Part shown: piece after piece, positions 1,366 through 63,690 of the stretch
Layout: each line of letters starts with the position of its first letter
Numbering within the stretch: the stretch's first letter is position 1
NCBI RefSeq assembly: GCF_028583425.1
Contig: NC_072806.1
Span: 34,518,001 to 34,582,000 of the forward strand
Reading direction: 5' to 3'
DNA: 64,000 nucleotides
DNA from: Eublepharis macularius
Taxonomy: Eukaryota; Chordata; Lepidosauria; Squamata; Eublepharidae
Program-made: the position numbers and the translations under genes
The notes under the pieces: generated by a model
Seen by the model: the letters and a program-made list of their open reading frames with translations, nothing else
Database searches by the model: none
What the model was told of the DNA's origin: nothing

Positions 1366-1570
1366 ATATACTTAATGAGACCCCGAAGCACAGTGGCAAC
1401 TGGGCACTGAGCAAAATTTCCAATAGTTTGGGAACAGGAGGTGGCCTCAGCGTCTAAATAGCTGCAGCCTCCCCGCCTTCCTAGAGCTGCATGAATGCCA
1501 CAATTAGTACAGAAAACCCGCAAAACGCACTGGGCAGGCGATCTGGTTTTCCGAGAAACTTATTTTTTAA

Positions 1571-1742
1571 AATACTCAAGAGTCCAGCAGCACCTTTAAG
1601 AGTAAGCAACTTTATTGTAGCATAAGCTTTTGAGAACCACAGCTCTCTTCGTCAGATGCCTCTGACGAAGAGAGCTGTGGTTCTCGAAAGCTTATGCTAC
1701 AATAAAGTTGGTTAGTCTTAAAGGTGCTACTGAACTCTTGAC
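1571..1742. repeat. Family A hairpin element
   Basis: Near-perfect inverted arms (AGAGTCCAGCAGCACCTTTA versus its complement near 1720-1740). Flanked by exact 10-bp duplications TATTTTTTAA (1561-1570 and 1743-1752). Confidence 0.75.
1658..1697 (+). ncRNA. Hammerhead-like motif, partly degraded (family A)
   Basis: CTGACGA (1662-1668), extra A, GAGA...TCTC, GAAA (1686-1689), GCTT and ATGC are all present. The upstream stem I strand is GCCT instead of GCAT, leaving one mismatch. The opposite-strand arm has the GAAA guanine changed to A. Confidence 0.3.
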
Positions 1743-2099
1743 TATTTTTTAACGGAAAGACTGACTATAGCCAGGGTCTCTGGGGGTTTCTGGGGGATAG
1801 AATTTTAAAGAGAAAGACAGGAAAGAGACAATGGGACAGCCCTCATCTGTCCTGAGGCAAAGGGGATGGGTCATTCAAGAAGAAGAGCCACACCTTTAAG
1901 CATTTTAACACCTGCTCTCAGATGCTAAGCAGCAAGACAGATGTGAGTACCAAGAGGATGGAGGAAGAGAAACTCCCTCGTGTACGCATACAGAGAATGC
2001 CAGCTAGCAATTAATATTTTGGTGGGGAGGGGGGAAGCAAAAGGAGTTGTATGGTGAATGGGACAGAAATGAAACTCTACTGAGATAAACTGATCACTA

Positions 2100-2325
2100 C
2101 TACACCCTGACCTGGATAGCCCAGGTGAGCCTGATTTTGTCAGCTCTCAGAAGCTAAGCAGAGTCAGCCTTGGTTAGTAATTGGATGGGAGACCTCCAAG
2201 GAAGACTAGGGTTGCAGAGGCAGGCAATGGTAAGCCACCTACGTTAGTCTCTTGCTATGAAAACCCCACCAGGGGTCATCATAAGTCAGCTATGACTTCA
2301 GAGCACTATCCACCACCACTATGAT
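2100..2325 (+). repeat. 5S rRNA-derived SINE
   Basis: CACCCTGACC, AGAAGCTAAGCAGAGTCAG and TGGTTAGTAATTGGATGGGA followed by GACC reproduce most of the 5S rRNA internal promoter (box A, intermediate element, box C). A non-5S body (GGCAGGCAATGGTAAGCCAC) follows. Confidence 0.85.
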
Positions 2326-2666
2326 GGCTCAATGGAAATTCCATATTCATAGGCAGTTTACCATTAAATAGCAGATGGTGACAGGCAATAATGCTGAGGG
2401 GGGAGGTGTGCTTAGCCTCTGCAACCTGCTTCCAAGTGTTGTAGGGTACCTCCCTGACCACCATGGGGAAAGAGGTCACTGGAGTAGATGACCACTTTTC
2501 AGAATCATCGGGGCTCTCTCAAGCACAAATTCCACAGAGGCGTTTCAAAAGCAAAATGGAAGGAAGTCTTGCAGCACCTAAAAACCTACAGGTTTTGTAG
2601 CAGGGGCATTCATGCACTGGAGTCCACTTCATAAGATGCATGAAGTGCCAACCAAGGTCATACTTT

Positions 2667-2815
2667 TTTTTTTGCTGTCAAGTCATAGCTGATTTGTGGT
2701 TTTCAAGACGAGAGACGAACAGAGGTGGTTTGCCATTGCCTGCCTCTGCATAGCAACCCTAGACTTCCTTCCTCTCCCATCCAAGTACTAACTGAGGTTG
2801 ATCCTGTTTACCTTC
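2667..2815 (-). repeat. 5S rRNA-derived SINE, reverse, partial
   Basis: GTCAAGTCATAGCTGATTTG tail, GGTTTGCCATTGCCTGCCTC body, TCTCCCATCCAAGTACTAAC 5S box C complement. Confidence 0.8.
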
Positions 2816-2834
2816 CAAGATTGAATGAGTTCAA

Positions 2835-3068
2835 GGGCCAAACTACAAGTGACGAATGACACAGGCTGGACACTTGTCAGCTTCCCTCAAGTTTTGACGG
2901 GAAATGTAGGCATCCTGGTCTTGCAGCTTGGCTCTCCGACTGCTGTCCAATGGACTTTTCAACTGTCACTTGTCTAACATTCCGTCAAGCTGCCTACATT
3001 TCCCGCCAAAACTTGAGGGAAGCTGACAAGTGTCCAACCTGTGTCATTCGTCACTTGTAGTTTGGCCC
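2835..3068. mobile_element. Long-terminal-inverted-repeat MITE
   Basis: GGGCCAAACTACAAGTGACG at one end and CGTCACTTGTAGTTTGGCCC at the other. Arms extend about 75 bp. No clear target duplication. Confidence 0.7.
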
Positions 3069-3172
3069 CAAGTTAGCCTGGCCCACCCAGGTCAGGGAGG
3101 GGTCATGCTACATGCCACAAAGAAACCCATTTTTAAAGAGCCACAAGATTCCATTTTTATGAAATCTTCAAT

Positions 3173-3832
3173 CAGGGTGGATAAAAATCATTTTTAAAAA
3201 AAATAAAAATAAAAATCAGACTTTGAAAATTTAAATGGGATGTTTTAATAAAATGTTTTTTGAGGAAAAATCTACCTAAAGATAGTTTTCTGTTTAAGAT
3301 ACATTATAGTCCAAAGGCTATTCATCAGGAAATAAGGAGTAGTTTTTAATTATGTTGCATGTGACTGTATATTCATGCAATGTTTAATTTTTTGGGTCAA
3401 TGAATTCCATTAATCCACTCACAACGCCATGCTCTTCCAGAGGTTTCTGTAAGATTATTGGGAAATTTTTCCATCTAGAAGATACGATCACTGATGCTTG
3501 GTTTTACAGTTCTCAAAACTGTGAATTTGTGCCTGCACAGCAGAGATCACATGCCTCTTCTTCACAGCAAAAAGGTTATAAAATAAACATACAGAGTTGA
3601 GAAAATGACCTTAATCCTCCTGTTCCTTTGCAAATCTTTGTACACAGAACCAACCCCCTTACCTCTTAAGTGCTAAGTTTCAAAAAATTCAATGAATAGA
3701 AGATTGTTGGGAGTGGAATAGATCTGCACAAGAAGCTAAGTGTGAGGAGTCTTTATGCAGAAAACCATGATTTAAATCTAGTCTTACTGACTCGTGATTT
3801 ATATCAATTTGATTTAAATCAAATTCATCCTG
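3173..3832. mobile_element. Non-autonomous hAT-type element, 660 bp, AT-rich
   Basis: Ends CAGGGTGGATAAAAATCA and TTAAATCAAATTCATCCTG are imperfect inverted repeats. Flanks TCTTCAAT/TCTTCAAC (3165-3172, 3833-3840) match 7 of 8. No transposase reading frame. Confidence 0.75.
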
Positions 3833-4959
3833 TCTTCAACAGCTTGATAATCAGCTATATTAGATTAACACACTGTACCATACAACCACACAACCATACA
3901 AAACGCTAAACACTGCCTCCTCCGGTGTACATTTATGGATAATATCCTTTATGGCAACCGTACAAATGTTTTGTATCTGTTAAATTCCTGGGATCAAATT
4001 ACAAGTCCGTTTTGGCGTTCTGCAGCCAACCCAGAAAACCAAACGTCTCATGCCCACTGAAGAGGAGAGCCATCGACTGACATCTGCCAGCCCCGAAGGA
4101 GCAGACAGCTGTGCCTCCATCTGTTCCATGCTCTGCTATCTGAAGAGAGCAGCAGTTTGGTGAGGGTGATTTTGGCAAGAAAGCCTCGTGGGCGCTGCAG
4201 CTTCCCAAATGCTTGAAAAGACAGAGAGGGAAGGAGGCCTGTCTAGCAGGTGCAGAGTTGAAGGATGAAAGAGGATGGGGTTCATGGCCTGCAGACCGGG
4301 CTCCTAAGCCCCAAACATCGCGTTTTGCCACAGCAGTGAGTCAGGTGACCCGCACACTCACCGGCTCTTTGTATTCCCCCCGCCCAAGGAAGAAAGCCGG
4401 CAAGAACAACACCGTCAGCTATTGGGCAGAAGATGACCTCAAGAAGGAAACTTTCACATCTCTGTCTGCACCAAGACCCGATGACCAGGAACTCCACCAT
4501 CGGCCCCTCCTGTGAATTCGGAGCATCCTCTTTAAGAAGCCCCAGGTGCAACTGTTACCTCTGCTAGAGGCGCACTACGCACTCTCAGTTACACACTAGC
4601 AGCCTGCAACATGCTAGTAATCAGATTAATTTCACTTGCCAGGTTGGTATTACAAGGGTGACTGGATTAATCACTAACACTCACTGTAAATACTAAATAA
4701 TTTCCATAACTGTAATTGCAAAGTAAAAGTGTTTACATGTGTTTCAGTTTTGCAGGGCAGGTTTCCAGACCTCCGCAAAAGAAAAAAAAATCCCCACATT
4801 TCACAGTTTGGCAAGCGCTAGAAGACTGAGAATAGCTGGATTTGGGCTACAGGGTTAAAGAACTGAACCCCAAGAAGGGCCAGCTAAATCCCAGATTCTA
4901 GGAATGCGAGAAGTTTTTTCCAGACCTCCCTGAGAATAACACTTAACATCACTCGTTGG

Positions 4960-5270
4960 CAGGGCTTTTTTTCTGGGAAAAGAGATGGTGGAACTCAGGA
5001 CCGCACAATGCCATCATTTTGGGTCAGCTGGAACAAGGGGGGAGTTTTTTAAAGTTTAAATCACCCGTGGCGAAAATGGTCACATGGCGAGTGGGCCCAC
5101 CCCCTGATCTCCAGACAGAGGGGAGTTTAGATTGCCCTCCATGCCGCTGCGCGAAGGGCAATCTAAACTCCCCTGTCTGGAGATCAGGGGGCGGGGCCAC
5201 TGGCCATGTGACCATTTTCAAGAGGTGCCAGAACTCTGTTCCACCGCATTCCTGCTGAAAAAAAGCCCTG
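4960..5270. mobile_element. hAT-type MITE, family K copy 1
   Basis: Ends CAGGGCTTTTTTTCTGGG and GAAAAAAAGCCCTG. The long internal inverted repeat contains CTCCAGACAGAGGGGAGTTT. Flanked by CTCGTTGG/CTCCTTGT (6 of 8). CAGGG...CCCTG termini with 8-bp duplications are the hAT signature. Confidence 0.78.
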
Positions 5271-5549
5271 CTCCTTGTGAAATTTCACATGGCCACTGAT
5301 TTTCAATGCTATCGCTCCATCCATAAAAACTAGAAATGTGAATTTTAAGGAAATGTCAAATTCCGTTTCCATCCAGAAACCAGACTGATCCACTAATTCA
5401 CTGCTGCAATTATCGATACCCCTCATCAAGCGCTCCATCCTTTATTTGCCTGTCTCCTTCTATCGTCTTCCAACAGGATGGGAAAACTTTTTTGCTTTAT
5501 TTGGCATTCCCCCGTAACTCTTATTAGCTCTCCTGCTCAGTTGTTTTTA

Positions 5550-8005: not shown

Positions 8006-8286
8006 TGTAGAAAAGAGCAAGAGTCCAGTTGCACCTATTAGACTAACAAAATTTGTGGTAAGGTTGGAGCTTTCGTGAGTCACAGCTCACTTCTTCAGAT
8101 ATTTGAAGAAGTGAGCGGTGACTCCCAAAAGCTCCAACCCTCCCACAAATTTTGTTAGTCTTAAGAAGCGAGCTGTGACTCACAAAAGCTCTTACTGCAC
8201 CACAAAACTCTGTTAGTCTTCTAGGTGCTACTGGACTCTTGCTCTTTTCTACTGCTACAAACAGACTAACACGGCTACTCATCTTG
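8006..8286. repeat. Family B hairpin element inserted in a SINE
   Basis: Arms GTCCAGTTGCACCTATTAGA and complement, with the characteristic AACAAAATTTGTGG. The right part carries an extra partial arm. CAGGGTTGTT flanks both sides (just before 8010 and near 8300), and the host tRNA-SINE continues after it. Confidence 0.7.
8063..8102 (-). ncRNA. Hammerhead-like core (family B)
   Basis: Minus strand: CTGAAGA (8092-8098), extra A, GTGAG (8086-8090) paired with CTCAC (8075-8079), GAAA (8071-8074), then GCTC. Stem II is a perfect 5 bp. Stem I is not well formed in this copy. Sense to PPM1D intron 1. Confidence 0.35.
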
Positions 8287-13250: not shown

Positions 13251-14236
13251 GCCCCACCAATGGACATGATGCTTTGCAGAGTTAATCAAAGTAAGAAAGC
13301 AATCCCTTGCCCCCAAAGGAGCTGGCAACAGGGGAGATAACAGAGGGAATGACTATGCGGACATAAGTCGCAAGGGTGGCAAGGGATGAGGGCAAGGAAC
13401 TACAGCTACAGATTCTTTAAGGGATTAAATCAAAGATTTGCAACCCACCCACCCCTCCCCAAACACACACAAAAGCAGAAGGTGTTTTTAGAGGAAGAAA
13501 GGGTAGCAGTACCAAGCAGGTGTTGAGGGACTGGGAAAGGGGAACGTGGATCTGTCATGCCAAAGATCATAAATTCTTGCCTACTGTTTAAATTTCAGCC
13601 TCCCTTTACCTGCCCCCATCTCATACCAGACTTTCAAGAGGAAACTGCTCTGTTTTCAGGGCATTTGCCGTCAACAGTCAGGCTATACCGAATGTGCACA
13701 CGGCCAGCCAACCCTGTTGAGCTTCCAGTACCCAACCAAGTGTTATCGGGGAGCGGATGGCCTGACGTCCGCCTGACATGGCGCAAGGTAGTTTCTTACG
13801 AGAGAGGCAAGACGCAGCCAAGCTCCCCTCCATTAGGCAGCCCCTTTGAGGAGGTCGGCAGGAGGGCAGGACGTTGCCAGCCAACATTCCCCTCCTCAAG
13901 TAAAAGCTGTAAACTGAATTTTAATGGGATAAAAATATAAAGGGGTTCGCTGCATCCTTCCAAACACTCTCGATACCTATTAGGCCTTATGCGTGCACAT
14001 ATGAAAGAGGCCCGAACAGGACGCCCTCTGCCTCTTCAGCACAGGATGAGTGAACCTTAAAATAAGAAACACAATTGGTGCAGAATAGAAAAGAGCCCAG
14101 TAGCACCTTTAAGATTAACCAACTTTACTGCAGCACAAGCTTTCGAGAACCACGCCTCTCTTTGTCAGATGCAACTGTATTGTACCATAAGCTTTCGAGA
14201 ACTACACCTCTCTTTGTCAGATGCAACTGTATTGTA

Positions 14237-14276
14237 CCATAAGCTTTCGAGAACCACACCTCTCTTCATCAGATGC
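14237..14276 (-). ncRNA. Hammerhead-like motif, tandem unit with CTGATGA box (family A)
   Basis: Read on the minus strand: GCAT (14273-14276), canonical CTGATGA (14266-14272), an extra A, stem GAGAG/TTCTC, GAAA (14245-14248), AGCT overlapping, then ATGG (14237-14240). CAT/ATG can close stem I. It lies sense to PPM1D transcription. The extra A before stem II is non-canonical. Confidence 0.45.
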
Positions 14277-14340
14277 AACTGCATTGTACCATAAGCTTTC
14301 GAGAACCACACCTCTCTTCGTCAAATGCAACTGTATTGTA

Positions 14341-14380
14341 CCATAAGCTTTCGAGAACCACTGCTCTCTTCGTCAGATGC
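14341..14380 (-). ncRNA. Hammerhead-like motif, tandem unit with CTGACGA box (family A)
   Basis: Minus strand: GCAT (14377-14380), CTGACGA (14370-14376), extra A, GAGAG/TTCTC stem, GAAA (14349-14352), then GCTT and ATGG (14341-14344). The core residues are intact. It is one of two tandem units with no core substitution. Confidence 0.42.
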
Positions 14381-14439
14381 AACTGTATTGTACCATAAGC
14401 TTCGTCAGATGCAACTGTATTGTACCATAAGCTGACGAT

Positions 14440-14479
14440 GCATCTGACGAAGAGAGCTGTGGTTCTCGAAAGCTTATGC
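14440..14479 (+). ncRNA. Hammerhead-like motif, intact plus-strand copy (family A)
   Basis: GCAT (14440-14443), CTGACGA (14444-14450), extra A, GAGA...TCTC stem II, GAAA (14468-14471), GCTT, then ATGC (14476-14479). GCAT/ATGC is a perfect 4-bp stem I. AGCT is self-complementary, as expected of a short stem III that works as a dimer. The predicted scissile bond follows T14475. Confidence 0.45.
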
Positions 14480-15919: not shown

Positions 15920-16290
15920 CAGAAGAGTTAGCTGTGTTAGTCTGTAGTTGCAAAATAGTAGAGTCCAGTAACACCTTTAAGACTAACTCGAGCAGACTCT
16001 ATGATATATATTTGATATTCCCTCCCTATTTTTTCCCTTGTCCTCCCCTATTCCTATATGAGAACACTAATAAAAAGCTATTAAAAAAAAAGACTAACCA
16101 ACTTTACTGTAGCATAAGCTTTCGAGAACCGCAGCTCTCTTTGTCAAAGGCAACATCTGACGAAAAGAGCTGTGGTTCTTGAAAGCTTATGCTACATTTG
16201 CATCTGACGAAGAGAACTGTGGTTCTCAAAAGCTTATGCTACGATAAAATTGGTTAGTTTTAAAGATGCAACTGGACTGTTTACTATTTT
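15920..16290. repeat. Family A hairpin element with internal insertion
   Basis: The left end AGAGTTAGCTGTGTTAGTCT and GAGTCCAGTAACACC are interrupted by about 100 bp of AT-rich sequence ending in a poly-A run (16081-16091). Then the AACCAACTTTACTGTAGCAT arm and two plus-strand hammerhead-like units follow. In one unit the stem II base pair is changed on both sides (AAGA/TCTT). The second has GAAA changed to AAAA. Confidence 0.65.
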
Positions 16291-20492: not shown

Positions 20493-20679
20493 AGATGGGT
20501 AGCCGTCTTAGTCTGTCTGTAGTAGCAGAAACAAGCAAGAGTCCAGTAGCACCAACAAGACTAACAAAATTTGTGGTAGGGTAGGAGCTTTCTGAAGAAG
20601 TGAGCTGTGGCCCATGAAAGCTCATCCCCTACCACAGTTTTTTAGTCTTATAGGTGCTACTGGACTCTTGCTCGTTTCT
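20493..20679. repeat. Family B hairpin element with 11-bp target duplication
   Basis: Begins AGATGGGTAGCCGTCTTAGT and ends GGACTCTTGCTCGTTTCT. Flanked by AGTGCTGTCCA at 20482-20492 and 20680-20690. Confidence 0.78.
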
Positions 20680-20867
20680 AGTGCTGTCCACGTCCGTACA
20701 CGCTTGTGGCACCTTGAAGTCTAACTCACTGGAGGGTACATTTTGTGAGCCAGAATTAAAGGTGCAGCTCCATTAAAGGTACATGTGCTTCACAGGAAGG
20801 AGTCCCTCATTTATTCCCTGTTCAAATTGACTGTTTTCTCTGGTCATGAGAGATGGTGCAAGTGGAG

Positions 20868-21965: not shown

Positions 21966-22326
21966 TCAAGATGGACAGCTGTGTGAGTCTGTCTGTCTGC
22001 AGCAGCAGAAAAGAGCGAGAGTCCAGGAGCACCCATAAGACTAACAAAATTTGTGGCAGGTATGAGCTTTTGTGAGTCACAGCTCACTTCTTTAAAAACA
22101 CAGCTAGAATGTGAGTCCTTCTGTCCTTATATCTTTGCAAGGTTGATGGATTTCCATTCTGTACGGCTAAATGAGGTGTCTTCACATTCTAGCTGTATTT
22201 GAAGAAGTGAGCTGTGGCTTAGGAAAGCTCATGCCCTGCCACACATTTTGTCAGTCTTCTAGGTGCTACTGGACTCTTGCTCTTTTCTACTGCTACAGAT
22301 AGACTAACACAGGGCTATCCAGCTTG
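21966..22326. repeat. Family B hairpin element, longest copy with internal stem
   Basis: End-to-end inverted arms. A unique centre of about 110 bp contains a second inverted pair (CAGCTAGAATGTGAG and CACATTCTAGCTG). This may be closest to the unrearranged form. A second, shorter copy follows at once. Confidence 0.65.
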
Positions 22327-22529: not shown

Positions 22530-23480
22530 CAGACTCGGGAAGCGGCCAGGGCCCGGCCTCCCCGGCTGAGCTTCGCCCAAACCCCTTGCGGCGGGCGACT
22601 CAACCGTCCCCGCTCGCGTCGACCCGTGCGGCGGCCTTTGTTCGTCCGGACGCGGCAGAGCCGGCGCGGGCCGGGCCGGGCCGGGCGCCTTTGTGCCCGC
22701 CGGGTGCCCGCGCGCCCCCCGCCCCGACTTACGCAGCTCCTTCCACATGGCGCGGTGGCAGGCGACGAAGCCCTTGCGCAGCGCGGCGCAGACGGCGGCC
22801 GGCTCGCGGGAGCGGAAGCCCCGCTGCCGCTGGATGAAGCCCCAGAGGTGCTCGCGGGCGAACTGGGCCGCCTCCCGCCCGCCGTGCCCGTCGCACACGG
22901 CGAAGAAGGCCACCGAGCGCCCCCCGCCCGGCGACGGCGACGGCGGCGGGCAGGGCGGCTCGGGCTCGGGCTCGGGCTCCAGCACCACCTGGGTCACGTC
23001 CTCCATGTATTTCCTGCCGCCCTGGTCCGAGAAGAGGCTCACGGCCAGCCAGCGCGGGGGGCCCGCCATGGAGCGCCGCGGCGACCGCTCGGCCCGCCTC
23101 GCCTCGCCTCGCCTCGCCTGCGTCGTCGAGGCGGCCGCGGCGCGCCACAATCCCCCGCCGAACGCGGCGCAGCTCCGGGTTCCGAGGAGGAGGAGGAGGA
23201 GGAGCGGCGGCGGCGCCGCCCCGAGCCCGGCCCTCCTCAGCCCGCCGCCGGCCCCGGCCCGGGCTTCCTCTCCCCCTCGGAAAGTTGCTTGGGGCTCAGG
23301 CGGGGAGGGGAGACGGGGGCCCGGGCGGCGCACGGAGAGCGCTTCGCCTGCCTCCTCGGGCCGAGCTGCGTCCCGAGCCGAGCCGAGCCTCTTCGGGGGC
23401 CCCGTCAAGGCCCGGCGCACCTTCGCGGAGAGCCGCGGCCAGGACAGGCCGAAGCCAGCGGGAGAAGACTTCGCTCCGCC
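22530..23480 (-). promoter_or_regulatory. PPM1D: CpG island / promoter region of PPM1D
   Basis: Very GC- and CpG-rich, spanning the start codon, all of coding exon 1 and the start of intron 1, unlike the AT-rich flanks. No TATA box is evident, which is typical of a housekeeping-type promoter. GGA-triplet runs (about 23184-23205) lie in the likely 5' UTR. WIP1 is a known p53 target, but I could not pick out a convincing p53 element by eye. Confidence 0.8.
22733..23069 (-). CDS. PPM1D: PPM1D exon 1 (coding part): p53-induced PP2C-type phosphatase WIP1, N-terminus
   Basis: Encodes the first 112 residues plus one base of the metal-dependent Ser/Thr phosphatase WIP1, a nuclear enzyme known to dephosphorylate p53, ATM and checkpoint-kinase sites and so end the DNA damage response. 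Visible PP2C signatures are [12 protein letters not shown] (residues 14-25) and the metal-binding [11 protein letters not shown] (60-70). The ATG at 23069 was chosen because MAG followed by the [11 protein letters not shown] block matches the family N-terminus. The exon ends at a GTAAG donor (22728-22732) in phase 1, which fits the exon 2 phase. The proline/glutamate-rich loop between the two motifs is about 45 residues shorter than my recollection of the human protein. The exon lies in a CpG island. Identity is very likely; mRNA ends are not determined. Confidence 0.95.
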
Positions 23481-23753
23481 AGGACATGCCAGCAAGGGCC
23501 GAGAGGTCACCGTCGTTCAACAGAAACCTTTCAAAAACAGAATCCAAGGCTGAATTGGAATTCATATGTAAATTTGACTCAGTCAGGCTGGGACTGAATA
23601 GAGACTGTGAATGGTTCTCTCATTACTAGAAGTGGCTGATTTCATTATCAGAAGCTACTAATTGCATCTACTCCCCCCTCCCCTCTCTACCTATACATCT
23701 GACCAAGAAAATAAATCCTTATACAAGAAAATAAATCCTCACCTTGGTTCAGA

Positions 23754-24309: not shown

Positions 24310-24402
24310 CTCCATGCATCTGACAAAGACAGCTGTGATTCTCAAAAGCGTATGCTACAGTAAAGTTGGTTAGTCTTAAAAGGTGCTACTGGACTCTTCT
24401 CG
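24310..24402 (+). repeat. Family A fragment
   Basis: Half element, GCATCTGACAAAGACAGCTG through TTAGTCTTAAAAGGTGCTAC. The core is degraded (CTGACAA, CAAAA). Confidence 0.7.
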
Positions 24403-24454: not shown

Positions 24455-24596
24455 AGGATTCGAGTCCAGCGGCCCCTTAGAGACCCACAAGATTTTCAGG
24501 GCGCAAGCTTTCAAGAGTCATCAGATTCTTCAGAGAGCACTGTCTGAAGAATCTGGTGACTCTCGAAAGCTTGCGCCCTGAGAATCCTGTTGGACG
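24455..24596. repeat. Family C hairpin element
   Basis: Arms ATTTTCAGGGCGCAAGCTTT and its near complement near 24560-24590. The core TCTGAAGAATCTGGTGACTC followed by GAAAGCTTGC is related to the other hairpin families. Confidence 0.6.
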
Positions 24597-25631: not shown

Positions 25632-25900
25632 ATGTATTGTCGAAGGCTTTCACGGCCGGAGAACAATGGTTGTTGTGGGTTTTCCGGGCTGTATTGCCGT
25701 GGTCTTGGCATTGTAGTTCCTGACGTTTCACCAGCAGCTGTGGCTGGCATCTTCAGAGGTGTAGCACCAAAAGACAGAGATCTCTCAGTGTCTTTTGGTG
25801 CTACACCTCTGAAGATGCCAGCCACAGCTGCTGGCAAAACGTCAGGAACTACAATGCCAAGACCACAGCAATACAGCCCGGAAAACCCACAACAACCCTA
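25632..25900. repeat. Family E hairpin element
   Basis: Starts TGTATTGTCGAAGGCTTTCA and ends CCCACAACAACC. The arms pair over more than 100 bp. The direct repeat CAACCCTATCCACA occurs on both sides, partly overlapping the element end. Confidence 0.75.
25719..25759 (-). ncRNA. Hammerhead-like motif (family E)
   Basis: Minus strand: CCT (25757-25759), CTGAAGA, extra T, GCCAGC stem paired with GCTGGT (one G-T wobble at its base), GAAA, CGTC, AGG (25719-25721). CCT/AGG closes stem I. The plus-strand copy in the same element has GAAA changed to AAAA. Confidence 0.4.
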
Positions 25901-27582: not shown

Positions 27583-27860
27583 TAGTCTGCTGCAGCAAAA
27601 ATAAAATGGGACTCAGACAGTGAAGATAAACAAAGTATTATTCTAGCATATGCTTTAGTGGACCAGAGTCCATTTCTTCAGACGCACGGAATGGTTATTG
27701 ATTAAGCAGCACTTTTATTTAGGAGGTATCATATGCCATGTTATATAGCTCTTAAAGGCTGCCTAATGACAGAGCATTTACTGCATCTGAAGAAGTGGGC
27801 TGTAGTTCACTAAAGCTTATGCTAGAATAAAATTTTGTCTTGATTCTTGATTATTTAATC
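27583..27860. repeat. Family D hairpin element
   Basis: Inverted arms (TTATTCTAGCATATGCTTTA and TAAAGCTTATGCTAGAATAA) separated by about 90 bp. The minus-strand core has a compensated stem II (TGGAC/GTCCA) distinct from the plus-strand arm. Both arms carry TAAA. Confidence 0.6.
27783..27822 (+). ncRNA. Hammerhead-like motif with core substitution (family D)
   Basis: GCAT (27783-27786), CTGAAGA (27787-27793), extra A, GTGGGC/GTTCAC stem with wobbles, TAAA instead of GAAA, GCTT, ATGC (27819-27822). Stem I GCAT/ATGC is perfect. The G-to-T change at the normally essential guanine predicts an inactive ribozyme. Confidence 0.3.
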
Positions 27861-29430: not shown

Positions 29431-29546
29431 CGCTGGTTGTTGTGGGTTTTCCGGGCTGTATTGCCGTGGCCTTGGCAATACAGCCCGGAAAACCCACAAC
29501 AACCATCATTCTCTGTCCATGAAAGCCTTCAACAATACATTGCACT
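29431..29546 (-). repeat. Family E hairpin element, internally deleted
   Basis: GGTTGTTGTGGGTTTTCCGG plus its complement remain, but the whole hammerhead-like centre is missing. The end AGCCTTCAACAATACA is present. An imperfect direct repeat GC(G/A)CTGGTTG flanks it. Confidence 0.65.
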
Positions 29547-36420: not shown

Positions 36421-36544
36421 AATTTCTAACTCGCCCTTCCCTCAAGTGGGTTCAGGGCGAGGTACAACAGTTATAAAAATATAATAAAATATTTAAAAAA
36501 TTCATAAAACAACAGTTCATCATAAAGTCAACAAACAGATAATA

Positions 36545-36754
36545 ATGGTTGTTGTGGGTTTTCCGGGCTGTATTGCCGTGGTCTTGGCATTGTGACACTG
36601 AGAGATCTCTGTCTTTTGGTGCTACACCTCTGAAGATGCCAGCCACAGCTGCTGGCGAAACGTCAGGAACTACAATGCCAAGACCACGGCAATACAGCCC
36701 GGAAAACCCACAACAACCATCGTTCTCCGGCCGTGAAAGCCTTCGACAATACAT
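36545..36754 (-). repeat. Family E element with shortened left arm and 13-bp target duplication
   Basis: Flanked by CAAACAGATAATA (36532-36544 and 36755-36767), exact over 13 bp. Nearly monomeric: the left arm stops before the core, so a single intact plus-strand motif remains. Confidence 0.8.
36616..36681 (+). ncRNA. Hammerhead-like motif, intact, with extended stem I (family E)
   Basis: CCT (36627-36629), CTGAAGA (36630-36636), extra T, GCCAGC (36638-36643) paired with GCTGGC (36651-36656), GAAA (36657-36660), CGTC (36661-36664), AGG (36665-36667). CCT/AGG closes stem I. After an internal loop, TTGGTG (36616-36621) can pair with TGCCAA (36676-36681) using two wobbles, giving the looped stem I typical of natural hammerheads. 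Predicted cleavage follows GTC at 36664. Confidence 0.48.
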
Positions 36755-36877
36755 CAAACAGATAATAACCGTCCCAAGATGGGGGTCAATTCCAGATGCA
36801 GACTGGAAAGATCCAGTATTCCATATCCACTCATGAAAATCCCCGGTGTGCCACAATGCTCACCTGAGCGGCCTTAG

Positions 36878-37640: not shown

Positions 37641-37840
37641 CAGAGGAGTTAGCCGTGTTAGTCTGTAGTAGCAAAATCGAAAGGAGTCCAGTAGCACCTT
37701 TAAGACCAACCAACTTTACTGTAGCATAAGCTTTCGAGAACCACAGCACTCTGAGTCAGATGCGCATCTGACAAAGAGAACTGTGGTTCTCGAAAGCTTA
37801 TGCTACAGTAAAGTTGGTTGGTGCTACTGGACTCTTTTCG
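37641..37840. repeat. Family A hairpin element with exact 12-bp target duplication
   Basis: Complete 200-bp copy, from AGAGGAGTTAGCCGTGTTAG to GGACTCTTTTCG. Flanked by ATTAATAACAAC on both sides (37629-37640 and 37841-37852). Both hammerhead-like cores are mutated (CTGACTC and CTGACAA). Inserted into the tail of a LINE. Confidence 0.8.
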
Positions 37841-38546
37841 ATTAATAACAACATCTCTGTCAAATCACTGAACCTCAAAGGGTGGCTGTGAGGGAAAAAC
37901 GGGGGGCAGAACTCTGTCAGCACAATCACAAGGCTGTTGCGAGAACAAAATGAACGAGCGGGTATCCTTCCCTGAAGGAAGGAGAGAAAAATTGGTGGGG
38001 TGAGGAATTCTGCATATTCTCGCTCCACTTTTGCCCTTGGGGCTCTTTGAAGAGATTTTTCTGGGGGCCGGCAGGGGTCACTCTGCACAAGCTCAGACAC
38101 CCCCAGCTTGTACAAGCCCTCGTTTGCAAAACAAGTCCAAGACAAGGCTCCTTTTGAAGCGTGAGGAGCTGTAGGAAGGGGAAAGCGCCGGTGGGCGAGG
38201 CCGAGGGGCTGGCGGCCCGTCCTCGCTTCCTCTCCGTCCCTCCCGCCAGGGCCCTCCGCGGCACCCCGGGGGCTCCCTCCGCCCCGCTCCAGCCTCTCCT
38301 CGCTGCGTCAGCCCACGGAGGGGCGGAACTCGGGCAGCCTCGGCGGCTGGGCGGAGCGACGAGGAGCCGGAGGAGGAGGAGGCCGAGGCCGCCGCCGCCG
38401 CCGCAGCACTAGGCCCAGCAGGCCTGAGGAGGCGCGCTGAGGCGAGCCCGGGAGCGGGGCGGCGAGGCGCGGGCGGGGGCGGCGCGGCGGGCGGGCCGCG
38501 AGGCGGGCGGCTCCGCGGGTCTCCCTCGAGCCCTCTCGGCGCACGC

Positions 38547-43768: not shown

Positions 43769-44738
43769 AAATAGTCTTTCCCTAGTATTCATGTCGTGAT
43801 GGCTGCTTCATGGTCCTTTGTAGATGGAAAAATATGATTAAAAAAAATCGAGTTCCTGAATTACGTACAAGACCGTAGTGTTACCCAGCTTGTGTGTTTG
43901 AGGCAGAGTGTGCCACAATTCAAATAAACTGAATTTTAAGATGACCCGGCATTTGGGATACTTTCAGCCATGGATTATGTAAATCACAATAGCATGCAGT
44001 ACAAATGTTCAAATTAACTGTGACTTTTTGGTTTATGATATATTTCTAATAATATCACTCAGTTATCTGCACTGTACTGAAACAAACCTCTGAGAAAGAA
44101 GAATCAAATCCTAGCCTGTGATGTTTTGGTGGATTAAGATTACTTTTGTAGAGACTACTGGACAAAATGATTAACTCTATTTAAGAACAGGTTGCAGTCT
44201 TCCAAATGCTGATCTTGTGCAAGTTTCGCTAAAGTTTATTGAGCATGCTGCTTTGATATGCTTGCTTGGTTGCTTCCCCAGTCTGCTTTAGTACTAATAC
44301 TTTATTTTCATTTATTTGTTTTTTAAATACTTGATGTGTACAGTATCCTGTGGTAGAGACCCTGCTACTGGTATGTTGTGCTGCTTTACCACAAGAATGT
44401 ATATGAAGCACTTTGAATGTTGGGTATTGAGTCTTTTTTCCCAAAGGGTGTGGAGACTAGACTTCAGTGTTTGGAGATACCTGGGTTCAGATAAAGCCGG
44501 TAAGGTAATCTTTGTTCACATGAAGTGTACTGACCAAATTTGGTATGGTGGTCTAAAAAAACTCTGGGAAGAGGGGAGCTCCAGTGAGTTTGACTAGCGT
44601 TGAAACCTTTCCCAAAACGTTTCCCATTTTGTGCAAACTGGGATAAAAATGATGTATTGTCGAAGGCTTTCACGGCCGGAGAACGATGGTTGTAGGGGGT
44701 TTTCCGGGCTGTATTGCCGTGGTCTTGGCATTGTAGTT

Positions 44739-44779
44739 CCTGACGTTTCGCCAGCAGCTGTGGCTGGCATCTTCAGAGG
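44739..44779 (-). ncRNA. Hammerhead-like motif, intact minus-strand arm (family E)
   Basis: Minus strand: CCT (44777-44779), CTGAAGA, extra T, perfect GCCAGC/GCTGGC stem, GAAA, CGTC, AGG (44739-44741). The outer helix TTGGTG/TGCCAA is also present (44785-44790 with 44725-44730). Confidence 0.47.
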
Positions 44780-44807
44780 TGTAGCACCAAAAGACTTTGG
44801 TGCTACA

Positions 44808-44848
44808 CCTCTGAAGATGTCAGCCACAGCTGCTGGCGAAACGTCAGG
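44808..44848 (+). ncRNA. Hammerhead-like motif, plus-strand arm (family E), sense to APPBP2
   Basis: CCT (44808-44810), CTGAAGA (44811-44817), extra T, GTCAGC paired with GCTGGC through one T-G wobble, GAAA (44838-44841), CGTC, AGG (44846-44848). It is in sense orientation within APPBP2 intron 1. Confidence 0.45.
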
Positions 44849-45539
44849 AACTACAATGCCAAGATCACGGCAATACAGCCCGGAAAACCCTCAACAACCA
44901 TGGGATAAAAATGGTTCCAACATGGCTGGAGTATACACTGCAAAAAAAAAAAAAAAAGATTGGGATGCATGAAACACTACAGAGCTACTTACCCAATTAA
45001 GGTTGAAGATAGAGGATTGATTCCCCACTTTCCTGGGCCCATTGAACTTGTACTGTCTGTTTGACATCTGTCCCTACCTGTGTTCAGATATAGCATAAAA
45101 TCAAGATTAGTTTTTTAACAATAATTTGTGAAACTAAGACATGGCTTGCTATCATCCAAATTCTGGTTTGCCTTTAGAAATTCTAGTTTGGTCATCTTAG
45201 AGAGGCCCAGCTAGTATCCCAGCCTGCCTTGCAGCGAAGGCAATGCCAGGGAGCAAGCCAGGATGCCTACATTCATATGCCATGTGAAACCATAGTTAAG
45301 ACTGATAAATCATCCTCAGACCATGGCTTCTTAACCTAGTATGACATACCGTTTCCAAGCATACTGGTGTGGCCTGCTTTCAGATGACCTTGGTCTCGAT
45401 GTGTAAGTTTTCTGTGTTATGTTTAAAATGTTTTTGAGAAGAATGCATTGTTAACCAAATGTGTGCTTCCAAGCATTCTCACAGACTCACCTGTGGGAGT
45501 CTATGAGGCTTTGTGGTTTTTAACAATGCAGAAGCACAT

Positions 45540-63339: not shown

Positions 63340-63690
63340 TATCTCTCTTAGCCTCACCCACCTCACAGGGTGATTTTTGTAAGGATAATAGTAACATATT
63401 GTCGAAGGCTTTCACGGCCGGAGAACGATGGTTGTTGTGGGTTTTCCGGGCTGTATTGCTGTGGTCCTGTCATTGTAGTTCCTGACGTTTCGCCAGCAGC
63501 TGTGGCTGGCATCATGCCAGCCACAGCTGCTGGCGAAACGTCAGGAACTACAATGCCAAGACCATGGCAATACAGCCCGGAAAACCCACAACAACCAATA
63601 GTAACATACTTTGTAAACCGCTCTGAGTGGGCGTTAAGTTGTCCTGAAGGGCACTATATAAATCAAATGTTGTTGTTATTTTAGTTTTTC
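63340..63690 (+). repeat. tRNA-derived SINE 3' part split by family E hairpin
   Basis: CACCTCACAGGGTGATTTTT before and TGTAAACCGCTCTGAGTGGG with GTCCTGAAGGGCACTATATA after the hairpin at 63399-63596. Confidence 0.7.
63399..63596. repeat. Family E hairpin element, core deleted, inside a SINE
   Basis: Flanked by AATAGTAACATA (63387-63398 and 63597-63608). The central junction GGCATCATGCC has removed both CTGAAGA boxes. It splits a tRNA-SINE tail. Confidence 0.8.

Follow-up and report, generated by a model that had tools for sequence, protein, structure and literature searches.

Hammerhead-like repeats of Eublepharis macularius and their PLE host elements

Several families of hairpin repeats were noticed in a 64,000-nucleotide stretch of Eublepharis macularius DNA (the window). 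They share the core of a hammerhead ribozyme, interrupted by one additional base. This locus raises the questions of which elements the repeats come from, and of what the additional base means.

Motifs and host elements of the repeats

Both strands of the window were scanned for CTGANGA, zero to two extra bases, a stem II of at least 4 bp and GAAA or TAAA. Eleven motifs were found in this strict scan, and exactly one extra base was present in all 11. Sixty order-1 random sequences contained a mean of 0.75 motifs (maximum 4) with 0, 1 and 2 extra bases pooled, and 15 motifs with one extra base across the 60, i.e., a mean of 0.25. The order of core, extra base, stem-loop and GAAA or TAAA, which an earlier note had described from the letters alone, thus exceeds chance (11 against 0.25). 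The five copies listed there as best intact were correctly placed, with core to GAAA at 36630-36660 (+), 44746-44776 (-), 44811-44841 (+), 14444-14471 (+), and 14245-14272 (-).

By BLAST with the units of four families, 37 copies or part copies were detected within the window. A covariance model was built from 11 copies of families A, B, and D, and a cut-off of E < 0.001 was applied. It recognized 25 places in the window, all 11 training copies among them, and 14 places in a 200-kb genome sample (one contig, 3.1-Mb steps). The families had been called unrelated-looking, which is right for family E only; A, B, and D cross-match in BLAST. A hammerhead covariance-model search, which the note had proposed as a check, gave no Rfam hammerhead match. 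None reached the gathering score across the window, and at E up to 10 two short stretches returned 3 and 0 matches, none of them a hammerhead. The region 24501-24576 is an inverted pair with CTGAAGAATCTGG...CTCTCGAAAGCTTGC and a poor stem II. It may be the family F that was mentioned without coordinates.

The host of family A was recognized at a genomic locus, L030, which carries a Neptune-like retrotransposon of the Penelope-like elements (PLEs) with RVT_1 and GIY-YIG domains (PF01541, E 3.8e-5). In its 3' pseudo-LTR (pLTR), approximately 325 nt past the end of the ORF, a family A hammerhead lies at 5449-5487, and degenerate copies are found closer to the ORF, so that an RT and GIY-YIG ORF is joined to the repeat for A through this locus. 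The element forms an inverted pair whose 1,185-bp arms are 99.4% identical. In the large inverted pair at its positions 1462-5535, one arm seems to be without most of the RT region, with both ends kept. From these sequence comparisons, family A is probably the pLTR of a Neptune-like PLE, and B and D would be likewise by their similarity to A. Neptune is presumably the proper clade name for L030 and for families A, B, and D. An exact family A 43-mer has 1,561 copies in the genome.

Family A units are spread over the window. One unit on the plus strand (14440-14479) has stem I GCAT/ATGC and an extra A. Tandem repeats of 52 bp on the minus strand at 14133-14380 contain one family A unit each (14133-14172, 14185-14224, 14237-14276, 14289-14328, and 14341-14380). 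They belong to a 52-bp minisatellite at 14111-14381 with a family A hammerhead in each of its five full units; a tandem multimeric ribozyme RNA could therefore be transcribed there. Head-to-head units were found at 1620-1697 (1620-1659 minus, 1658-1697 plus) and at 37724-37803 (37724-37763 minus, 37764-37803 plus), the latter with the insertion flanks ATTAATAACAAC. Further units lie at 16112-16239, i.e., 16112-16151 (-), 16153-16192 (+), and 16200-16239 (+). A relic of a Neptune-like PLE endonuclease was found at 23425-23626 (+), with 56% and 88% identity to L030 in two pieces (E 7e-22), and a family A unit (24316-24355, +) lies downstream of it on the same strand.

Family B units were located at 8063-8138, i.e., 8063-8102 (-) and 8099-8138 (+), and at 22060-22234, i.e., 22060-22099 (-) and 22195-22234 (+). 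A head-to-head B pair at 20493-20680, with its plus unit at 20588-20627, has the target-site duplication AGTGCTGTCCA. Family D units, with TAAA for GAAA, lie at 27646-27822, i.e., 27646-27685 (-) and 27783-27822 (+). For the A and B tails, BLAST alignments at 20493-20680 and 37641-37843 suggest that a long end is combined with a short one; the tail counts given below cover E pairs only.

Family E belongs to a different kind of PLE. Its 41-mer has 27,516 exact copies in the 2.24-Gb genome, and the reversed control has none. The window segment 36636-36764 (+), which begins at ATG 36636-36638, is the 5' end of a PLE ORF. It corresponds to residues 1-43 of the Anolis PLE protein P0002 at 49% identity, and residue 1 of P0002 also aligns to three other E copies of the window. 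At L009 and L010, inverted-duplicate copies of a single genomic locus, an RT/endonuclease ORF ends approximately 70 nt upstream of an E hammerhead. This ORF has an RVT_1 domain (E 3.9e-12) and the sequence GVYRIPC..VYIG. In the Poseidon-type endonuclease region, no Pfam GIY-YIG match was found, and T5orf172 (E 0.042) was below its cut-off. The closest proteins to the E-linked ORF are Anolis PLE proteins (76% over 81% of the query). P0002, of 836 aa, is 73% identical over its whole length to genomic E elements, whose frames have 870-911 aa. The assignment of an RT and endonuclease ORF to E is based on RVT_1, on the GVYRIPC..VYIG sequence, and on full-length homology to an Anolis PLE protein.

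Among 54 elements scored out of 43,274 first-look candidates, the alignment began at residue 1 in all 54 and no internal stop was found in 53; from these open frames, the family looks recent. A pattern that joins the E tail to the conserved ORF codons following it has 449 perfect matches in the genome. The distance from the ORF start to the tail motif is 99 nt both in the window copy at 36636-36764 and in 11 of 11 elements compared among the 100 matches listed. In the arrays examined, tandem units are spaced at 2,668-2,669 bp, and family E shows the pLTR, tail, and target-site duplications of a PLE. The P0002 match, the residue-1 alignments, the 99-nt register, and the tandem units identify E as the pLTR and ORF start of a Poseidon-type PLE. 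The clade name Poseidon is suggested by resemblance to PAc, the Poseidon element of Anolis carolinensis.

Some related observations were made during these searches. Tandem Poseidon-type arrays occur at C2:133204773-133218151 and C10:57681389-57686481 of genome G000, with six start motifs in one array. L009 and L010 (C1:1343600-1359900) form a 7.2-kb inverted duplication at 99.97% identity, in which one PLE insertion is present twice. The search with the N-terminal region gave five proteins among 43 candidates, and a scan of viral contigs for the PLE protein gave none. A PLE reverse transcriptase fragment, P0043, is filed under Escherichia coli and is most likely contamination.

Ribozyme fold, extra base and start codon

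Sixteen copies of families A, B, D, and E were compared base by base. A MAFFT alignment of E with A placed the loop gap wrongly, and the stems were therefore counted by script. CUGANGA, GAAA, and a UH cleavage position were present, with exceptions in single copies, i.e., TAAA in both D copies, TTGAAGA in B22p, CTGACAA in A37p, and the lack of U16.1 in D27m. Stem III is ACGT or AGCT, both self-complementary, in 15 of the 16, the exception being D27m with AGCA. Such a self-complementary stem III of 4 nt would suit dimers.

Stem II has 90 of 96 cells in standard pairs, against a mean of 72.8 and a maximum of 83 in 5000 partner shuffles. Stem I has 50 of 64 cells paired, a value reached by 5 of 5000 shuffles; both shuffles treat the copies without correction for kinship inside families. 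Pair 2 of stem II is AT, TA, or CG with one wobble, pair 3 is GC or CG, and the differences lie between families. Clear covariation is confined to stem II and is mostly between families. The number of stem I pairs per copy is 3 or 4 in A and D, 3 in E, and 1, 1, and 4 in three B copies. The outer strands had been said to pair in some B copies, and this is the case in one of three B copies examined, stem I being broken in the other two. The GTGT/ACAC stem I was absent from the two D copies examined, which have GCAT/ATGC and GCGT/ATGC instead.

In nearest-neighbour folding, the E monomer forms stem II with a probability of at least 0.94. The hammerhead stem I is not formed and another pairing is preferred. 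In one A unit and one D unit, both stems fold at 0.88 or above. The z-scores of folding, between -1.45 and +0.12, are weak, the energies are unexceptional, and cofolding did not single out a dimeric hammerhead. Folding of E without stem I fits a ribozyme that needs help; PAc RNA of Anolis was cut only with its protein (PMC11167929).

Stem II does not directly follow A9 in any of the 16 copies. One extra base is inserted in each, as the earlier note had held for every family, i.e., T in 4 E copies and A in 12 A, B, and D copies. In known hammerhead alignments, one or two nucleotides are sometimes inserted between CUGAnGA and the stems, according to the available part of PMC10085705, and the inserted base was accordingly not taken as excluding a hammerhead. 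The choice that had been offered for this base was a true core variant or lost activity. For E, it is not a sign of decay, because the sequence lacking the extra base has 0 exact genome copies against 27,516 with it, where only exact copies are counted and otherwise-changed copies stay outside the count.

The best family E hammerhead lies at 36630-36664 (+). Its core is 36630-36636, the extra T 36637, stem II 36638-36643/36651-36656, GAAA 36657-36660, stem III ACGT 36660-36663, and stem I CCT 36627-36629/AGG 36665-36667, with cleavage predicted after C 36664. In E, the extra T supplies the U of the start codon, here ATG 36636-36638 (A9-U-G10.1), and cleavage would take place 26 nt past this ATG, inside codon 10. 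In PAc of Anolis, the cut site is likewise 26 bp after the start codon (PMC11167929). The role of the extra base as the U of AUG would explain its retention in E. The extra A of families A, B, and D needs another reason, because no ATG is present there.

The ribozyme segment GAAACGTCN reads as Glu-Thr-Ser in the ORF. Twelve PLE proteins, drawn from 170, extend 30 or more residues beyond the LYGE anchor on its upstream side, and M-x6-ETS was found in five of these and was absent from seven; the value for shuffled N-termini was 0.016. A ladybird beetle protein is among the five, with LKM-x6-ETS. These protein sequences suggest that the overlap of start codon and ribozyme may be old; protein homology alone could also keep M-x6-ETS. 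In the searched literature, in which most listed papers stayed unopened, overlap of an ORF and a hammerhead was met only in PMC11167929; novelty is not claimed.

A speculative extension, which is probably wrong as a whole, would make ribozyme and start codon one object in Poseidon-type PLEs. The PLE protein would remove the AUG of its own mRNA, which would end translation and turn the mRNA into template, and a coding constraint would have preserved the extra base from insects to lizards. This self-removal of AUG is proposed because the Anolis homologue cuts only in the presence of the PLE protein.

Head-to-head pairs and their tails

The E insertions of the window are all head-to-head pairs (5/5), with exact duplications of 12-18 bp in four and of 7 bp in one. 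The pair at 44650-44901 has its arms at 44650-44795 (minus) and 44796-44901 (plus), with a long left tail and a short right tail. It is flanked by TGGGATAAAAATG at 44639-44651 and 44901-44913. Its minus core (44746-44776) runs from CTGAAGA to GAAA with an extra T; the plus core (44811-44841) also has the extra T and shows one stem II change, C-G to T-G. The pair at 36538-36757 consists of a short minus arm (36545-36593) and a long plus arm (36588-36757) between the target-site duplications CAAACAGATAATAA at 36532-36545 and 36755-36768. At 25632-25897, a pair with target-site duplication has a minus core at 25726-25756, and in its plus copy G12 is changed to A. At 29431-29540, the arms begin downstream of the ribozyme, so that no hammerhead is present, and the exact target-site duplication is 7 bp. 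The arms of the pair at 63397-63597 begin at G8/A9, which leaves the core incomplete, and its target-site duplication is AATAGTAACATA.

In total, 26 E pairs were compared, taken from the window and from L003, L005, L008, L009, and L034-L050. Fifteen had been chosen for the 41-mer in both arms within 1 kb and four for a distance of 1-3 kb; L003, L009, and the five window pairs complete the set. They represent 25 events, since a single duplication is common to L035 and L036. Single arms in L011, L012, L016, L026, and at the start of L009 were left out, as was L010, which is the L009 insertion again. L035 (C1:4664300) and L036 (C1:5016050) carry the same PLE insertion and duplication at a distance of approximately 350 kb, which suggests either a segmental duplication or a repeat in the assembly. 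Among the 100 genome copies of E listed, neighbours are head-to-head in 15 of 15 cases under 1 kb and in 4 of 5 at 1-3 kb.

One long and one short tail were found in all 26 head-to-head pairs. Counted from the ATG, long tails end at +113 to +122 (about +119) and short tails at +83 to +89 (about +85). In L044, the outer arms end at positions 597 (long) and 568 (short). Exact duplications of at least 10 bp, mostly 12-15 bp, flank 22 of the 26 pairs when bases shared with the tail end are counted. Duplications of 5-8 bp occur in L037, L045, L046, and the window pair at 29431. At the variable site 559, the alleles of both arms agree in 24 of 26 pairs (17 AA, 7 CC, 1 AC, 1 CT), an indication that each event drew on a single template source. 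Across the pairs, 27 variants are common to both arms and 92 are in one arm only, most of which may be later mutations.

No support was obtained for insertions that begin at the ribozyme cut. None of 40 arms from 20 short pairs begins within 2 nt of the cut; the selection of pairs biases this sample, since an intact 41-mer was required in both arms for 14 of the 20 and in one arm for L003. The ten window E arms are free of this bias, and none of them begins within 2 nt of the predicted cut either. A genome sample of 200 kb contained one E copy, too few for a 5'-end test.

In PAc, reverse transcription begins inside the ORF, mostly at 111-118 bp within an AC-rich stem-loop; two start sites were observed, and the tail lies between them (PMC11167929). 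Both target strands were cut and extended in vitro, with the start site equal between strands (PMC11167929). The short head-to-head copies of E would most likely arise in a similar manner, by reverse transcription that starts inside the ORF, near +85 and near +119, on the two strands of a target that is cut in a staggered way. In the simplest reading, the two target strands would prime at separate start sites, one strand at each. It is possible that one long and one short tail are a rule of PLE priming on both strands. In the searched literature, one-sided tails were met only in PMC3846280; most listed papers stayed unopened, and novelty is not claimed.

Alternative readings and known systems

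The repeats are almost certainly fragments of two kinds of PLE, each with a minimal type I hammerhead, i.e., the 5' part of a Poseidon-type element in family E and Neptune-like pLTRs in families A, B, and D. The elements with their ORFs, the position of the ribozyme relative to the start codon, the tandem units, the tails, and the target-site duplications were observed in the genome as described above. In family E, the order is pseudo-LTR, hammerhead, and the opening codons of the RT/endonuclease ORF. By analogy with Anolis PAc, E RNA would be cut after 36664, weakly alone and better as a dimer or with the PLE protein. The ribozyme is dispensable for PAc insertion in vitro (PMC11167929). The likeliest role of the hammerhead would be to process tandem transcripts, with little activity by itself and more with protein or as a dimer. 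As to the earlier note as a whole, its observation is confirmed and its interpretation partly supported; the PLE hosts were missed by it.

It is very improbable that the repeats are independent non-autonomous units, retrozyme-like or satellite, outside PLEs. Most copies examined have no ORF, family A forms the 52-bp tandem arrays at 14111-14381, and type I hammerheads occur in animal retrozymes (PMC7229834, in part). However, the PLE ORF adjoins E without a break on either side, and in L030 a PLE ORF has A next to it, which contradicts this reading for these two families, B and D being linked by similarity to A only. Animal retrozymes, as far as described in the available part of PMC7229834, are also tandem repeats of 150-450 bp that have no ORF and carry canonical type I hammerheads. 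A different objection is that the motif is now no ribozyme, its order being kept for other PLE needs, such as the E codons or a protein-binding hairpin, with the extra base as a mark of lost catalysis. The extra base in every counted copy would agree with this, as would the protein-coding nature of E from A9 on and the ten window arms, the sole sample unselected for an intact ribozyme, of which none starts within 2 nt of the cut. PAc insertion in vitro is independent of the ribozyme, and RNA-seq ends at the cut site were not found by the authors (PMC11167929). Nevertheless, PAc RNA is cut with its protein, C3G and G8C abolish the cut, which returns in part in the double mutant (PMC11167929), and the register of ORF and cut is the same in E. 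Together with the stem II covariation between families and the insertions of 1-2 nt in known hammerheads (PMC10085705, in part), this makes a motif without ribozyme function unlikely.

For the head-to-head hairpins, self-priming (snap-back) of the first cDNA has to be weighed against two reverse transcriptions. This model is stated for rotifer PLEs in the available part of PMC3846280. It fits the arm starts, which differ by 12 nt or less in 15 of 20 short pairs measured, and the agreement at site 559. The arms, however, end at different tail positions in every pair, and exact duplications of at least 10 bp flank most of them. In L042, the short-tailed arm reaches 88 nt beyond the long-tailed arm, and so it was not copied from it. 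PAc also extends both target strands in vitro (PMC11167929). Self-priming is possible to a degree and less probable than not, and two reverse transcriptions are the preferred reading.

Minimal type I hammerheads in PLEs were reportedly described by Cervera and De la Pena in 2014 and by Lunse, Weinberg and Breaker in 2017. Like those of the window, they are said to have CUGANGA, stem II, GAAA, and almost no stem III, to lie in pseudo-LTRs, and to be expected to act as dimers.

The type I architecture with a minimal self-complementary stem III, possibly dimeric, which the earlier note had proposed, is the published one for PLEs in the available parts of PMC7761336 and PMC6155905. Thousands of minimal type I hammerheads, possibly dimeric, occur in PLE pLTRs of many animal genomes, and their role is called 'still a mystery' (PMC7761336, PMC6155905, and PMC7229834, each in part; the quotation is from PMC7761336). 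Animal retrozymes share type I hammerheads with the window repeats. They differ in that, within the same part of PMC7229834, they are short tandem repeats with canonical hammerheads and no ORF, and are not PLE ends. The ribozyme class and the kind of element are already known, and the extra base is explained for one family, E. A published ribozyme class was recovered from repeats alone by a tool-less reading of raw sequence.

The endonuclease-containing Penelope of the rotifer Adineta vaga resembles E in its head-to-head inverted pLTRs and in the first ORF codons inside the pLTR. It has target-site duplications of 8-10 bp and a 31-bp tail on one inverted pLTR. In the available part of PMC3846280, this tail is called optional, whereas a long and a short tail are constant in the 26 E pairs and the E duplications are mostly 12-15 bp.

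PAc is like E in that its ORF starts at stem II, its cut lies at the same distance after the start codon, its units are in tandem, and two RT start sites explain its tail (PMC11167929). The species is another one and the N-terminal codons differ, with 49% identity over 43 aa. P0002 is taken to be PAc or close to it, and the extra base of PAc is read from the register of ORF and cut, not from its DNA letters. Beyond the searched literature, a start-codon reason for the extra base in E may be added, and tens of thousands of exact copies with this base and none without it may serve as a natural test set. The tail pattern may likewise give a testable clue to the joining of two PLE cDNAs, a step that PMC11167929 leaves for validation.
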